From a virus, in IMG/VR virus record IMGVR_UViG_3300025319_000110, positions 1 to 22,826 of that record: a stretch of DNA of 22,826 nt. One strand, written 5' to 3'. Positions 1 through 21,596 of the stretch are shown here, piece after piece. The notes beneath the pieces are model-generated. The model was given only the letters and a program-made list of their open reading frames with translations, did not search any database and had not been told where the DNA came from. The position numbers were made by a program, and so were the translations under genes. The first letter of the stretch is position 1; each line of letters starts with the position of its first letter.

Positions 1-564
1 CAAGCTCACAGATTCATCAACGAGTTCATCCGGCGTATTTGCTGGTATTATCATCCCATCAATTTGTGCGCGTTTTGCTTTGCTATCTCGATTTAAGTCT
101 GTGCGCTTGGCATAATCGCCTTTGTTCAGCGCATCCAGTTCATCAATATCCACGTCCAATTTCGATATGCGTCTTAACTCATCAAATTGTTCGCGTGTTT
201 CCATGCGCGAAAATGCGAGCGGGTCGAACGAGAGTTCGCCTAGCAATTTATCAAGCAGTGTTTGTGGGGAAGAGAATCGCGCCCCTTTGATGCTTTCTAC
301 GGTCAGCGTGCTCCCGGCCTCCGTAAATTTGCGTTCAACCACAATTTCACCCAAATCGAGACGGACCCGCGCCTTGTTTTCGCCTTTACGGATAGGTTGC
401 GCCTGGATATGTTTAGTACCCGCAAGCGCCCACCAGATCGCATCGAGCACTGATGTTTTGCCAGCACCATTTTTCCCTGTAATCTGGACAAGATTTCCGT
501 CAGGTGTAATTTCCACGGCAATCAAGCGCTTGATATTTTCGGCGGTCAATTTTAATATTTTCAT
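1..564 (-). CDS. Partial SMC/RecN-like AAA ATPase (N-terminal 188 residues)
   Basis: The frame stays open from an ATG at 564 to the window edge, so the C-terminus is missing. The start MKILKLTAENIKRL is the usual opening of RecF/RecN/SbcC-type ATPases, and a Walker A motif GKNGAGKTS lies at about residues 30-38. The next segment (LDAIWWALAG) is the expected helix after the P-loop. A charged stretch that could start the coiled coil follows after residue 130. Phage proteins of this kind act in DNA recombination or repair, often with a nuclease partner; the subfamily cannot be set from this piece. The start overlaps the stop of the upstream zinc-ribbon gene as ATGA, so translation is probably coupled. 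Open reading frames on the other strand here are shadows. Confidence 0.85.
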   Translation of the reverse strand, partial: MKILKLTAENIKRLIAVEITPDGNLVQITGKNGAGKTSVLDAIWWALAGTKHIQAQPIRKGENKARVRLDLGEIVVERKFTEAGSTLTVESIKGARFSSPQTLLDKLLGELSFDPLAFSRMETREQFDELRRISKLDVDIDELDALNKGDYAKRTDLNRDSKAKRAQIDGMIIPANTPDELVDESVSL

Positions 565-734
565 TTCTTCTCCTTTATCTTGTATCTGGTTACGCGCCCG
601 CAACGTGGACATTCAAATACACGGTAGTCATTTTGATCAGTGGATGTAGATGTAACATACGCTGGCCTTATCTTGACTCTACCGCGCCTGTGGCCCTTGA
701 AATGGCAGATTAATTTTCCGAGTAGTTTATTCAT
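561..734 (-). CDS. Small basic zinc-ribbon-like protein, 57 aa
   Basis: This short basic protein starts MNKLLGKLICHFKGH and ends with a CPRCGR pair of cysteines, which suggests half of a zinc ribbon, perhaps completed by Cys10 and His11/His15. I do not recognise a named family or a function. The ATG at 734 is preferred to a TTG at 743 because it overlaps the stop of the Ro60 gene as ATGA, and its own stop overlaps the ATPase start in the same way. The three genes therefore form one translationally coupled operon. Confidence 0.7.
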   Translation of the reverse strand: MNKLLGKLICHFKGHRRGRVKIRPAYVTSTSTDQNDYRVFECPRCGRVTRYKIKEKK

Positions 735-2044
735 GGTTGACAAGCCTTTTCAAATTCACGAATATAATCAATGACGGCCTCGCTGAATCCGTCAATATGA
801 ATCCATTTGCCGTAACCCACACCATTTTTGTTGGATGCGACATTAATCATATAGCCGCGACCAACCGGATCAGGTACACGGTCATGACTTTGTTCATCGG
901 TAATAACAACAAGCCTGTCATATTCAATTTTATTCATAGCATGAACCGCCTCACCTAGATAGGTGCTGCTATGTTCTGTTGCGTTTTTCAAAGCATCTGC
1001 AAGAGCCATGCCTTGACGTGGCGGAACTTCGGCAAGTGAATCACTGAAAGCAAATACCCTAGTTTTTTCACAAACGCCAGCGGTTAATATTGCTACCGCA
1101 TAAGCCGCATCACGACGCATTAAATCGGATTTCGCTGACAATGATGCGTCCATGCTGCCGCTGTTATCTACTAGAATAACGGTTTTACCACTAATGCGCT
1201 CAATTCCATTCATGGCTTGAAGCATCGCTTTGTCAATTTCAGGCTCCCACTGCGGCACAGCACGCGCCGCCGCAATAAAGCGAAACGGAAGGGCTTTACT
1301 ATTCTTCGCACCTTCATGTAGAGAAGCAAATATCAGAGATTCGCCTACACCAGCATTCCGCATATTCCTTAAGTTGCGGAGTAATGCCAGATAGCCAAGT
1401 TTCTTTTCTGACAGGAGGCGTTCAAATGTTATTTTCTTGTCTGCGCCGCCGGATAGGGCGACTTCCCAAGTATCGGGTGCCGTTAAGGTTCCGGCGATAA
1501 GCTGTTTCCAGATTTGCGCTTGTTCCTCATTTTTGGGCTTGGCGTGGCACAGAAACAGCACGTCTCGCAATTTGATTTTGCCATCACGATTATATTTCGC
1601 CAGTTGATAACCATTGAATTTACGAAAGGCATTTTGCAGGCCGCGCTTAACCTGTGCGGAAAGGGGGCAGCGACCGTCCTTCCAATAAATTGCCAGAAAT
1701 TCAGTTAATTCATCAGCGCGCTGAATAACACTGGCGATAGTTTTGCCAACCAGCGTTCCTCTTGTTTTGCCGCGTGCCAGTTCACGCGCCAGTAACAGCG
1801 GCACATGACGAAGTTTGAAATGGGTACGGGCCTCGATCGCAAGCGCCGCCAGTTCTTCCGGCTTTACTTTTTGACAAGCATCAGAAATGCGGGAGGTGAT
1901 AGATTGTCCATCTTCATAAAATTCATTTTCCCATAACATACACGCCATCACAGAACGGCGTAATTGTTGCGATGGATTGATGTGTTTTGCTATCGCGCCT
2001 TCTTGAGTATAGATAGGATCGCGTTTTATATTTATCTTCGCCAT
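731..2044 (-). CDS. rsr: Ro60-like RNA-binding protein (TROVE + VWA domains)
   Basis: The 437-residue protein matches the Ro60 family. An alpha-helical TROVE (HEAT-like ring) domain fills roughly residues 10-280, with phrases such as LLARELARGK, and a VWA domain follows. The metal site is complete: DNSGSM at 293-298, Thr361 and Asp383. Known Ro60 proteins are rings that bind Y RNAs on the outside and RNA 3' ends in the cavity. In Deinococcus the homologue (Rsr) works with PNPase and a Y RNA in RNA decay and rRNA maturation. A phage copy might steer host RNA turnover, but that is inference. GGAG lies 7 nt before the ATG. Two Y-RNA-like stem-loops sit directly upstream on the same strand, which strongly supports the assignment. 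Confidence 0.92.
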   Translation of the reverse strand: MAKINIKRDPIYTQEGAIAKHINPSQQLRRSVMACMLWENEFYEDGQSITSRISDACQKVKPEELAALAIEARTHFKLRHVPLLLARELARGKTRGTLVGKTIASVIQRADELTEFLAIYWKDGRCPLSAQVKRGLQNAFRKFNGYQLAKYNRDGKIKLRDVLFLCHAKPKNEEQAQIWKQLIAGTLTAPDTWEVALSGGADKKITFERLLSEKKLGYLALLRNLRNMRNAGVGESLIFASLHEGAKNSKALPFRFIAAARAVPQWEPEIDKAMLQAMNGIERISGKTVILVDNSGSMDASLSAKSDLMRRDAAYAVAILTAGVCEKTRVFAFSDSLAEVPPRQGMALADALKNATEHSSTYLGEAVHAMNKIEYDRLVVITDEQSHDRVPDPVGRGYMINVASNKNGVGYGKWIHIDGFSEAVIDYIREFEKACQP

Positions 2045-2060
2045 ATCATTTCTCCAAAGT

Positions 2061-2152
2061 AATGCGGGAATATTCGATTAGAGTTTTTCGTGCGCTGCCT
2101 TGCGGCCCGCTTCCGTTCGCCAAGTGAAGTATCTCTAATCTTCGCCACGCAA
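2061..2152 (-). ncRNA. Candidate Y RNA, copy B (promoter-distal)
   Basis: Read on the minus strand, GGCGAAG (2146-2140) fits the bacterial Y RNA motif GNCGAA(N)G. It opens a helix GATTAGAG (2140-2133) / CTCTAATC (2083-2076). The 3' strand continues with a 5-nt bulge GAATA and then TTCC, so GAA pairs with TTC with a bulged C on the 5' side, as in Ro-binding stems. GCG/CGC can close the base. The 49-nt loop region has a TTC/GAA hairpin with a 7-nt loop and a GCC-GCAA-GGC tetraloop hairpin. It ends about 20 nt before the Ro60 start codon. Ends are estimated. Confidence 0.72.
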
Positions 2153-2160
2153 ATTTAGCG

Positions 2161-2226
2161 CCCGGAATAAACGATTACTGTATTTTTCATTAGCAGTGAA
2201 GTAGCAGTAATCTTCGCCAAGGCAAT
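2161..2226 (-). ncRNA. Candidate Y RNA, copy A (promoter-proximal)
   Basis: This copy has the same plan as copy B. GGCGAAG (2218-2212) opens a helix GATTACTG (2212-2205) / CAGTAATC (2180-2173), then a 5-nt 3' bulge GTTTA and TTCC that can pair with GAA across a bulged C. Relative to copy B the upper helix has two compensatory changes (C:G to G:C and T:A to A:T), which is direct evidence that pairing is conserved. The loop is shorter (24 nt) but keeps TACTTCACT and GAAAAA, and has a TTCA/TGAA hairpin with a 7-nt loop. It lies just downstream of a promoter on this strand. Confidence 0.72.
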
Positions 2227-2235
2227 TCTTCATGG

Positions 2236-2264
2236 TTGACAGTATGGACTTAATGATATATGGT
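2236..2264 (+). promoter_or_regulatory. Sigma70-like promoter for early plus-strand operon
   Basis: TTGACA (2236-2241) is followed after 17 nt by TATGGT (2259-2264, 4 of 6). The predicted start near 2271 gives a 20-nt leader before the YdaS-like gene. The two opposing promoters occupy the same 35 bp, and their -35 hexamers form an inverted repeat, so both cannot be bound at once. Confidence 0.5.
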
Positions 2265-2270
2265 TGTCAA
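2241..2270 (-). promoter_or_regulatory. Sigma70-like promoter for Y RNAs and Ro60 operon
   Basis: On the minus strand TTGACA (2270-2265) is followed after 18 nt by CATACT (2246-2241), which matches TATAAT at 4 of 6 positions. The predicted start near 2234 is about 10-15 nt before copy A of the Y-like RNAs, so RNAs and Ro60 mRNA could share one transcript. It interlocks with a promoter for the opposite strand. Confidence 0.55.
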
Positions 2271-2290: not shown

Positions 2291-2548
2291 ATGATCCGCT
2301 ATACTGACATACTGAAAATGCGTAAAGCCCTGAAAAAAGCGATTAAAATAGCTGGCGGCGAGTCAGCGCTGGCGGAAAAGCTCGGGATGATCAAGACGAC
2401 AAGGCACGGTAAAGTCCTCGGCGCAACCCGCCAGGGCGTCCATCAATGGCAGATAGCGCCACCGCATTGGGTGTTATCAATAGAAGCTGTGACTGGCGTA
2501 TCCAGATACGCATTAAGGCCGGACATATATGGATCAAGCAATGAGTAA
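2291..2548 (+). CDS. YdaS-like Cro-type regulator, 85 aa
   Basis: The protein contains the YdaS/Cro pattern: KKAIKIAGGESALAEKLG, then a recognition segment ATRQGVHQWQ, then VLSIEAVTGVSRYALRPDIYG near the end. The RPDIY ending is characteristic of this family. Such proteins are small helix-turn-helix DNA binders in prophages, here first in the early operon and facing the Ro60 operon, so it could act on the divergent promoter pair. The insert KTTRHGKVLG between the first two helices makes it longer than usual. No good ribosome site precedes either the ATG at 2291 or the alternative ATG at 2318, so the exact start is open. Confidence 0.8.
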   Translation: MIRYTDILKMRKALKKAIKIAGGESALAEKLGMIKTTRHGKVLGATRQGVHQWQIAPPHWVLSIEAVTGVSRYALRPDIYGSSNE

Positions 2549-4676: not shown

Positions 4677-4838
4677 ATGAAAAACATGAAAAACGGCGAT
4701 CTGCTACACACATTGACTAATCTGGATGAGGAATTGAATAACGCTGTCGCCGGATTCAAGTGCGGCTTCTGGATCGGATGCGCTGCGGGTATTGTAGTAT
4801 CTGGCGTGATCATCTGGGCGGTATGGGCAATATTGTAA
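4677..4838 (+). CDS. Small single-pass membrane protein, 53 aa
   Basis: The frame encodes MKNMKNGDLLHTL, an acidic helix (NLDEELNN), then one hydrophobic span from about residue 30 to the C-terminus (IGCAAGIVVSGVIIWAVWAIL). It is therefore a likely inner-membrane protein with its N-terminus in the cytoplasm. The ATG at 4677 has GAGGA about 6-8 nt upstream; an ATG at 4659 overlapping the previous stop is the alternative (59 aa). The function is unknown; holin-like or superinfection roles are possible but unsupported. Confidence 0.6.
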   Translation: MKNMKNGDLLHTLTNLDEELNNAVAGFKCGFWIGCAAGIVVSGVIIWAVWAIL

Positions 4839-10885: not shown

Positions 10886-10987
10886 GATAGATGTATGATT
10901 GTGATAGTTCAAACCATTAACGTGCTGCGCGCGCGCGGGCGCGTGAAAGAGAGGAACTGTTCAAAGTATCACAATCTATCATCTATC
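10886..10987. repeat. 21-bp imperfect inverted repeat around a GC-alternating core
   Basis: The arm at 10886-10906 (GATAGATG, TAT, GATTGTGATA) is the reverse complement of 10967-10987 at 19 of 21 positions. GTTCAAA follows the left arm directly (10907-10913) and precedes the right arm (10960-10966). Between them is a block of alternating G and C (about 10926-10943), far richer in GC than its surroundings. The layout could form a large cruciform or bind a dimeric initiator. Confidence 0.7.
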
Positions 10988-11366
10988 ACTACACTATTCT
11001 ACACCATACACAATCATACATTCGGCCAATTCATTATCCGGACAATCTATCATCATCTATCATTAATATGAGTGTACCAGCTACACTAAGTCCCTGGCCT
11101 AGTGCCCAGCTTGACAAGATGATGCAGTGCAATCAGTAATCAGGCACCACTAGTAAACGGATGTTATTGATTTATATAGATAAATAATCCTATTTAACAT
11201 AATGTTTATTATACGTAGTACGATTCGGCGATAGTGAGTGTTTACTAATCGACCCCATATTTTTTCAGACAGACCCCGGCCCCCCAAAAGTTTATGCGTC
11301 CGCGAAATTATAGGGGCAGGTCTTAATAAATTTTCCACGTTTCAATTCTTTTGTTGCATTGAATCA

Positions 11367-16021: not shown

Positions 16022-16363
16022 ATGAGGGAAAGATTACCCAAGAATAGTGGTTTATGTTCGCGTTGTCATGGCCCAAGAAGTAATGCAGAAAAGAGATATT
16101 GTAAAACATGCCATGCAGCATGGATGCGCGAACATAGGCCAAAATATAGTGATTTAACTGATGAACAAAGGCAGAGGTCAAATGCCAGAGCTTATGCCCA
16201 TGTTTACCGAGACAGGGGAAAACTAATAAAGCAATCTTGTGAACAATGTGGTGACGAAAACTCTCAGATACACCATGATGATTATTCTAAGCCACTTGAG
16301 ATTAAATGGTTATGCCGTAAACACCATTTAGAATTACACAGCAACCGAAGATCAGTTGTATAA
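16022..16363 (+). CDS. HNH homing endonuclease, 113 aa
   Basis: A treble-clef-like N-terminal zinc part (Cys12, Cys15, Cys27, Cys30) is followed by a basic linker and an HNH core: SCEQCG (Cys73, Cys76), IHHDD (His84-His85-Asp86) and WLCRKHHLELH (Cys98, His101, His102, His106). All catalytic and zinc residues are present, so it should be active. Such enzymes cut at or near their insertion site and spread by repair copying. The last six residues (NRRSVV) are read from the relic of the Bbp19-like tail in another frame. A TTGACA/TGTCAA inverted repeat (about 16000-16020) precedes the start. Confidence 0.9.
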   Translation: MRERLPKNSGLCSRCHGPRSNAEKRYCKTCHAAWMREHRPKYSDLTDEQRQRSNARAYAHVYRDRGKLIKQSCEQCGDENSQIHHDDYSKPLEIKWLCRKHHLELHSNRRSVV

Positions 16364-20217: not shown

Positions 20218-21114
20218 ATGTCCGTAAATATACCTTCGTGGTACGTCCAGCAATATTCCACCAACATCGATCTGTTGTTACAGCAGAAGGGCTCCAAGCT
20301 CTCCAGCGCTGTTTCAATGGGTTCTTATGTCGGCACCCAGGCCTCTCCCGTCGATCAAGTAGGTTCGATTGAAGCCAATACGGTCACCTCGCGTTTCGCC
20401 GATATGCCGCGTATTGATGCCGCACTTTCCCGGCGCTGGGTCACACCGACCGATTACGATGTGCCGCAGTTGATTGACAGCTTTGATAAATTGCGCCTCC
20501 TGACCGATCCGGGCAGCCGTTATGTTGAAAATGCGGTTTATGCCCTGGGCCGCAAGAAAGATACCGCCATCATCAATGCCTTTACCGATGCCGCGAAAAC
20601 CGGCGTCGCTGGTGCTGGCAGCACCATCTTTACCGCCGCCAATGAAGTGGATGTCTCCACCGGCGGCGCCAACTCACGCCTCAATGTCGCCAAAATCAAG
20701 GCCGTTAAGGAACTCATGCGGGCCAACTTCGTGGACTTTGACAACGATCCGGTCTATATCGGCCTGACCGCCAAAGACGAATCCTCTTTGCTGGAGGATA
20801 TCCAGATGGTATCCTCTGACTTCAATCAGAGGGACACCCCGGTTTTGCAGGACGGAAAGTTGACCCGTTTCCTCGGCATGAATTTCATTTATTGCGAACT
20901 GATTGAAAGCGTGGCTGCCGGTACGAATGAAGTGGATGTGCCGGTGTGGGCAAAATCAGGGATGCACTTGGGCGTGTGGAATGAAATACAGGCTTCAATT
21001 ACGGTGCGCAATGACATCCAGAGCGAACCGTGGCAAGCCTATGTCAAGATGACCTGCGGCGCGACCCGGCTTGAGGAAAACAAGGTATATTCAATAGAGA
21101 GCTATAGAGCATAA
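20218..21114 (+). CDS. Major capsid protein, 298 aa
   Basis: The start MSVNIPSWYVQQYSTNIDLL follows AGGAGA by 8 nt; upstream in-frame ATGs have no ribosome site. Text such as MGSYVGTQASPVDQVGSIEA, DYDVPQLIDSFDKLRLLTDP and WNEIQASITVRND is typical of the podoviral (BPP-1-like) capsid family. Length is shorter than most (about 330), mainly at the C-terminus, which ends VYSIESYRA in AT-rich codons unlike the rest. It overlaps the LAGLIDADG gene as TAATG. Confidence 0.9.
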   Translation: MSVNIPSWYVQQYSTNIDLLLQQKGSKLSSAVSMGSYVGTQASPVDQVGSIEANTVTSRFADMPRIDAALSRRWVTPTDYDVPQLIDSFDKLRLLTDPGSRYVENAVYALGRKKDTAIINAFTDAAKTGVAGAGSTIFTAANEVDVSTGGANSRLNVAKIKAVKELMRANFVDFDNDPVYIGLTAKDESSLLEDIQMVSSDFNQRDTPVLQDGKLTRFLGMNFIYCELIESVAAGTNEVDVPVWAKSGMHLGVWNEIQASITVRNDIQSEPWQAYVKMTCGATRLEENKVYSIESYRA

Positions 21115-21596
21115 TGGCTTTAAATATTACAGATATTTACTGGCTGGCCGGATTTATGGACGGTGAAGCATGTTTTTCTATGTGGGGCAAAACGCCATCT
21201 ATCACGATAGCGCAAAAGGAAATGTGGCCACTTGAAAAAGTACATAAACTTGTTGGTGGTAAATTCTATAAATTCAAGAATTGGGGAACCAATAAAGAAA
21301 CTTTTTATAATTCCCTGCATATTCATGGCAAACGCGCTATCGGCCTGATGATGACGCTTTATTCTTTGTTGTCCCCAAGGCGACAAGAAAAGATTGAAGA
21401 AATCATTGCCAAATGGAAATTAATACCTTGCCGTGGAGAACATAACAGAATCAAAACTCATTGCAAACGCGGTCATGAATTTACGGAACAAAATACATAC
21501 ATGAAAGCAGACGGTTCTGGCCGTGAATGTAGGAAATGCCAGAAGATACATAACGAAAAGTATCTCTCAAAGAAACAAGTTTTACAGATAGCTTAA
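21114..21596 (+). CDS. LAGLIDADG homing endonuclease, 160 aa
   Basis: YWLAGFMDGEACF (9-21) is a LAGLIDADG motif with the catalytic acid near Asp16/Glu18. Only one motif is evident, so the protein may act as a dimer. A C-terminal zinc finger follows (Cys117, His121, Cys139, Cys142), of the type attached to phage homing enzymes. The gene is AT-rich, overlaps the capsid stop by one base, and is clearly an insertion between capsid and cement genes. Its last residues KKQVLQIA may derive from the original capsid tail. Confidence 0.85.
   Translation: MALNITDIYWLAGFMDGEACFSMWGKTPSITIAQKEMWPLEKVHKLVGGKFYKFKNWGTNKETFYNSLHIHGKRAIGLMMTLYSLLSPRRQEKIEEIIAKWKLIPCRGEHNRIKTHCKRGHEFTEQNTYMKADGSGRECRKCQKIHNEKYLSKKQVLQIA

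Follow-up and report, generated by a model that had tools for sequence, protein, structure and literature searches.

The phage genome analyzed here carries, in the leader of a Ro60 gene, two elements, YA and YB, that are very probably Y RNAs of the bacterial type, and the apex of the smaller one, YA, probably has the shape of a tRNA anticodon arm. Taken together, our comparisons make it likely that both elements are Ro60-bound Y RNAs and that YA presents an anticodon-arm-like apex. A covariance model, the covariation of the stem, and the strand bias of the elements all bear out the first-pass annotation of this DNA in its proposal that Ro60-linked Y RNAs are encoded in the Ro60 leader; two features had escaped it, namely, the anticodon-arm form of the YA apex and the absence, here, of the tRNA-like Y RNA found in most relatives. 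Judged from the sequence, the Ro60–Y RNA system is real and its arrangement ordinary.

A phage Ro60 gene and the two elements ahead of it

The 22.8-kb window (the whole stretch of DNA that was analyzed, 22,826 nucleotides) comes from a podovirus-like phage, with a head-tail connector (PF12236) and terminase genes, whose genome is complete at about 41,672 bp (the ends of contig G001 overlap by 126 bp, and the junction between them is spanned by the window). On the minus strand, positions 731–2044 hold a complete ORF of 437 aa, identified as Ro60 by Pfam, alignment, and structure modeling. This ORF harbors a TROVE domain (PF05731, E = 4e-18) and a vWA_Ro60 domain (PF25045, E = 1e-6) in which the MIDAS residues D293, S295, S297, and D383 are intact, these residues being invariant in an alignment of 70 sequences. 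The predicted model (pLDDT 91.4) matches 13 PDB entries at E < 0.001, all of them Ro60/TROVE structures, and reaches a TM of 0.78 against Xenopus Ro60 (1YVR). With its TROVE and vWA domains, its MIDAS, and its predicted Ro60 fold, the product qualifies as a Ro60/Rsr (TROVE) protein, and the complete TROVE+VWA gene that had been placed behind two stem-loops is indeed there. Elsewhere in the window, we also observed a perfect 12-bp inverted repeat (TGTATGATTGTG/CACAATCATACA, spacer of 105 nt) at 10892–11020, as well as putative free-standing HNH-type endonuclease ORFs amid the structural genes (16022–16363 and 21114–21596).

YA (57 nt, with a minimal apex) and YB (about 82 nt) lie on the minus strand at 2163–2219 and 2066–2147, respectively, and each displays the GGCGAAG, the 8-bp helix, the 5-nt 3′ bulge, and the TTCC that the first-pass annotation had described and that a check of the letters confirmed. 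In YA, the helix GATTACTG/CAGTAATC is accompanied by the bulge GTTTA, TTCC, and an apex of 24 nt; the 5′ strand of its putative Ro60-binding stem, GGCGAAGATTACTG, occupies 2205–2218, and the 3′ strand CAGTAATC, with bulge and TTCC, occupies 2164–2180, in line with the family consensus CGNYTRTTCC. In YB, the helix GATTAGAG/CTCTAATC comes with the bulge GAATA, TTCC, and an apex of 49 nt. As had been noted from the letters, one apex is small and the other larger, and one helix is set apart from the other by two compensatory pair changes (C-G to G-C and U-A to A-U).

Bacterial Y RNAs carry the motif GNCGAA(N)G, and YA and YB show the traits of this broad class, as they sit beside Ro60, contain GGCGAAG, and possess a covarying stem. 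Rfam scans of the window gave no credible match to either element. Our own model, built on 17 Y RNAs that all stem from other lineages, has just two matches in the window: YA, at 51.0 bits (E = 5e-15), and YB, at 44.3 bits (E = 1e-12). Folding energy, one of the checks that the first-pass annotation had suggested, is weak evidence by itself, with z = −1.9 for YA and z = −0.6 for YB, the latter not separated from shuffled sequences. These ordinary folding energies, the Rfam result, and the adjoining divergent repressor-like gene would suit a reading of YA and YB as chance hairpins, attenuators, or DNA operator repeats rather than Y RNAs.

The comparative data speak otherwise. The Ro60 protein, used as query, led to 61 viral and 36 genomic loci, and the upstream regions of these relatives contain a recurring element made of GNYGNAG, 7–8 nt, UACUUC, a variable apex, the stem complement, and CGNYTRTTCC. 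A scanner for perfect stems missed many such elements, and covariance models were used in its place. Among 23 short copies, 64 cells changed on both sides of the stem against 18.8 when shuffled, for a covariation score of 0.633 against 0.181 (slid controls reached 0.19 at most). Since these copies had partly been selected by pairing, a second test relied on sequence motifs alone: in the resulting 64 elements, 7.4 of 8 positions pair with their own partner versus 5.0 with a swapped one (0 of 20,000 permutations, a count that, here and in the other family tests, is not a strict probability because the rows are related). The stem thus covaries at homologous loci, where the first-pass annotation had considered that a lack of conservation of the helix, together with a lack of Ro60 binding, would undo its proposal. 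The strand distribution points in the same direction: all 143 covariance-model matches at E ≤ 1, spread over 63 sources and 445 kb, fall on the Ro60 strand, as do 68 of the 69 matches at genomic Ro60 loci. In 671 kb of viral DNA retrieved by the 5′-half pattern, matches were limited to two Ro60 loci and one fragment without Ro60. On account of these compensatory changes, of this strict strand bias, and of the association with Ro60 across many lineages, the non-Y-RNA reading can be regarded as already refuted, with a negligible probability left to it; a terminator-like site is moreover absent.

In viral contigs, the scan for Y RNAs without Ro60 by the 5′-half pattern mostly returned chance matches. 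The fragment without Ro60, a 15-kb viral sequence devoid of a TROVE gene, bears a 33-bit Y RNA match (L185:8433–8502, minus strand) that is possibly either a Y RNA without a Ro60 of its own or part of a truncated locus.

Promoter, operon, and tandem copies

The two Y RNAs lie, as the first-pass annotation had proposed, between a promoter and the Ro60 gene. This sigma-70-type promoter (2241–2270, minus strand; 10/12 in a consensus scan) is composed of TTGACA (2270–2265), an 18-nt spacer, and CATACT (2246–2241), and its counterpart in the sister phage L003 keeps the positions of the hexamers and the 18-nt spacing, with a diverged spacer and a −10 hexamer reading TATACT. On this basis, the transcript would start about 15 nt ahead of YA. 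More broadly, 12 of 30 arrays have a promoter-like site with a score of 9 or more ahead of their first Y RNA, against 12% of shuffles. A divergent YdaS/repressor-like gene (2291–2548, plus strand; PF15943, E = 1e-13; phrog_35) lies on the other side, and promoter-like sites of both orientations overlap at 2236–2270 (TTGACA-18-CATACT on the minus strand, TTGACA-17-TATGGT on the plus strand), between this gene and the Y RNAs, where they may possibly form a shared operator.

Downstream of Ro60 come a 57-aa Zn-ribbon-like ORF (561–734, minus strand; weak Zn_Ribbon_Prim match), whose start overlaps the Ro60 stop (ATGA), then an SMC/SbcC-like ATPase (phrog_1499; 1–564, minus strand), which also starts within an ATGA overlap with the preceding ORF and is cut at the window end (the full gene is in L071), and then an exonuclease VIII-like gene. 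Arranged in this way, the locus looks like an early recombination operon that runs leftward, away from the YdaS/repressor-like gene, its early timing being presumed. The first-pass annotation had coupled the RNAs to the SMC-like ATPase, an idea that we rejected: the overlapping start and stop codons reflect an ordinary operon position, nothing connects the ATPase to the RNAs, and in one relative a lysozyme gene stands downstream in its place. Neither does the co-occurrence of two Y RNAs with Ro60 turn out to be as unusual as had been supposed. At least two copies are present at 41 of the 58 viral Ro60 loci with matches (E ≤ 0.01), so that tandem copies are the norm next to Ro60; tandem same-strand arrays also occur at bacterial Ro60 loci. 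The arrays are usually upstream of Ro60 and are downstream of it in L026, L038, L041, L049, L061, and L179.

This layout raises the question of a cis-acting leader, in which YA and YB would stay in the mRNA and be bound by Ro60, which would thereby regulate its own translation or how stable the operon transcript is. Both elements do lie between the promoter and the start codon, the TTCC of YB ends about 11 nt ahead of the ribosome-binding site (GGAG, 2052–2055, minus strand), and no terminator-like site occurs between YA/YB and Ro60. However, where the array is downstream of Ro60, as in the relatives listed above, it cannot be a translation leader, and apices with complete tRNA domains (see below) suggest RNAs that act in trans. 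We hence consider a purely cis-acting leader to be quite unlikely and favor Y RNAs that associate with Ro60 in trans, while cis and trans roles of YA and YB may coexist.

The apex of YA and the tRNA-like Y RNAs of relatives

The apical hairpin of YA (UUCA-CUGCUAA-UGAA; 2186–2200, minus strand) comprises four A/U-rich pairs and a 7-nt loop with U33, A37, and A38, and its pairs have probabilities of 0.85–0.97 when folded in the context of the Ro60 stem, the only context in which it folds. The stem, the 7-nt loop, U33, and a purine at position 37, all characteristic of anticodon arms, are thus present together. We take this loop to be that of tRNA-Ser(GCU). At the scale of the family, 12 of 68 short phage Y RNAs fold to a 7-nt loop with U33 and R37, versus 0.42 in shuffles; anchored hairpins peak at a loop size of 7 (37 versus 8.5 when shuffled), with 4 and 5 hairpins at loop sizes 6 and 8, and display U33 in 23 of 37 cases (P = 8e-6) and R37 in 34 of 37 (P = 2e-7), these P values being optimistic for related rows.

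YB differs in this respect, with no clear anticodon arm. It contains a hairpin capped by a GNRA tetraloop (GCG-G-GCC-GCAA-GGC-AG-CGC; 2092–2110, minus strand) that folds in both sister phages, with a single loop change from GCAA in the window to GUAA in L003, and that could possibly be the relic of a D arm, a likeness judged by eye. At most, a weak 7-nt-loop hairpin of only 3 bp (UUC-ACUUGGC-GAA; 2116–2128, minus strand) may be added, which is the minimum-energy fold in L003 and not in the window.

Most relatives encode at least one Y RNA with a T arm and a D arm in permuted order, and in these tRNA-like Y RNAs what looked like an anticodon arm lies between the UACUUC box and the T arm. To avoid selection by pairing, 24 of them were taken for the sole reason that their segment at this place is exactly 25 nt long. 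Pairing at the five expected stem positions is seen in 108 of 120 cells, and the two variable pairs match their own partner in 44 of 48 cases against 25.4 when swapped (0 of 20,000, with the caveat on related rows given above); within the 7-nt loop, U33, A38, and a purine at position 37 are each found in 22 of the 24 elements. The triplets vary (GUU in 7, GCU in 4, and others). Over all 105 T-arm elements, a 5-bp stem with a 7-nt loop forms in 33, versus 10.2 when shuffled. The presence of an anticodon arm after the UACUUC box therefore shows many tRNA-like Y RNAs to be, in their predicted structure, circularly permuted whole tRNAs, with the Ro60 stem between the D arm and the anticodon arm.

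Several individual RNAs deserve mention. Upstream of a divergent Ro60 gene, L057:782–907 encodes an un-permuted cloverleaf, in the order acceptor stem, D arm, Ro60-type hairpin, anticodon arm, T arm, acceptor stem (MFE −55.5 kcal/mol), with GGCGGGG/CCCCGCC as acceptor and a GAU-type anticodon loop; a search for relatives of the Ro60 of this locus returned its own contig only. Just upstream of other phage Ro60 genes, tRNAs have been annotated or predicted (L065:2766–2840, Ser; L067:2128–2195, Gln; L064:2803–2873, Asn, the last by ARAGORN) that resemble portions of Y RNAs, with “anticodons” supplied by the Y RNA anticodon arm. In crAss001 (L069), a T-arm-like hairpin follows a UACUUC box around position 4740, in the 900-nt gap downstream of Ro60, a gap in which the Y model has no match.

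In the complete genome of the phage studied here, a genome-wide check revealed neither a permuted T/D arm nor a tRNA-mimic Y RNA: its Y RNAs are YA and YB only, next to one ordinary tRNA-Pro. YA and YB could accordingly be decayed tRNA-mimic Y RNAs, whose stem still gates Ro60 and whose apices are functionless. As a matter of fact, the minimum-energy fold of 56 of the 68 short Y RNAs lacks the 7-nt-loop hairpin, which may therefore be a relic; where YA and YB differ from one sister phage to the other, the changes are all in the apices; a D-arm-like stretch can be seen by eye at the end of YB; and loci without T and D arms are scattered over the Ro60 tree, a distribution that led us to reject a single clade-wide loss of the tRNA mimic. 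Against such decay, the sister phage L003 retains the apical stem, U33, and A37 of YA while the loop triplet changes from GCU to GCG, a change that by itself fits drift as well as selection, and the YA apex, UUCACUGCUAAUGAA, recurs in the distant phage L028. We therefore hold functionless apices to be rather unlikely and retain the anticodon-arm-like reading of YA. Still, the cis-regulatory and relic explanations could each be partly true.

Possible roles and known systems

If YA and YB are genuine Y RNAs, they would be made at the start of an apparently early leftward operon in which Ro60 is the first protein gene, be cut out of the leader RNA, attach by their stem to the outer face of the Ro60 ring, and thereby gate this ring, while the YA apex would offer its anticodon arm to some protein able to read such arms. 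Tentatively, and with a modest chance only of being right, this apex might act as a decoy or tether for a host enzyme that cuts or handles tRNAs during infection. A broader and slightly more speculative proposal is that phage and some bacterial Y RNAs are Ro60-tethered tRNA mimics with a true anticodon arm, YA-like minimal forms being free-standing decoys that keep host anticodon nucleases from harming phage translation or that steer Ro60 to cut tRNAs. YrlA has been suggested as a possible anticodon nuclease inhibitor in Salmonella (PMC7790460). An anticodon arm within the Y RNAs of bacteria and phages brings a concrete and testable idea of their partners, namely, enzymes reading or cutting anticodon arms. 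With its 57 nt, YA is a defined minimal Y RNA on which binding and structure could be studied. Certain phage “tRNA” annotations next to Ro60 can be explained as Y RNA parts, and Y RNAs may have originated from a tRNA that gained a Ro60 stem insert and was then circularly permuted.

The 2014 work of Chen reportedly describes a tRNA-like domain in one or more Y RNAs of each species. That bacteria and phages encode Y RNAs next to Ro60 has already been published (Chen 2014, as cited in PMC12282133 and PMC8394870). Putative Y RNAs of the Listeria phage CKA15 are proposed in PMC12282133, near a Ro60-like gene as in the window, with neither a structure nor an anticodon arm in the passages that concern them; mycobacteriophage Y RNAs are cited there as well. 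The Ro60 of the Thermus phage phiLo (PDB 9L5Y, 9KOP) is the top structural match by E-value (TM 0.69, E = 2e-17) and shares the fold of the window Ro60 at 22% identity; the titles of these entries name no Y RNA. In the Deinococcus Rsr–Y RNA–PNPase machine (RYPER), a Ro60-family ring is likewise combined with a Y RNA thought to gate and tether, according to a review (PMC8394870); the YA apex is very short, unlike the Y RNA of RYPER. In the same review, the tRNA-like parts named for Y RNAs are the D, T, and acceptor arms alone (PMC8394870).

YrlA (Rfam RF02553) resembles the window RNAs in its position beside Ro60 and its Ro60-type stem, and YA and YB, which have no Rfam match and no T, acceptor, or D arms, fall outside this subtype. 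It is with the relatives of the window RNAs that YrlA shares a permuted T arm, a closed acceptor stem, and a D arm, RF02553 matching L064 with 50.0 bits (E = 3e-10) and L025 with 48.4 bits (E = 4e-10), neither of which reaches the gathering score of 69. The YrlA consensus nevertheless lacks the anticodon hairpin, the corresponding region of L064 (2816–2924) being aligned as an insert. Unlike the Y RNAs with T and D arms of its relatives, YA has kept only a Ro60 stem and an anticodon-arm-like hairpin. The accessible literature contains no account of such an RNA, an earlier mention of an anticodon arm being possible in Chen 2014 or Sim 2020, and this comparison suggests that YA represents a novel Y RNA variant, in which a Ro60 stem bears an anticodon-arm-like apex with neither T nor D arm.
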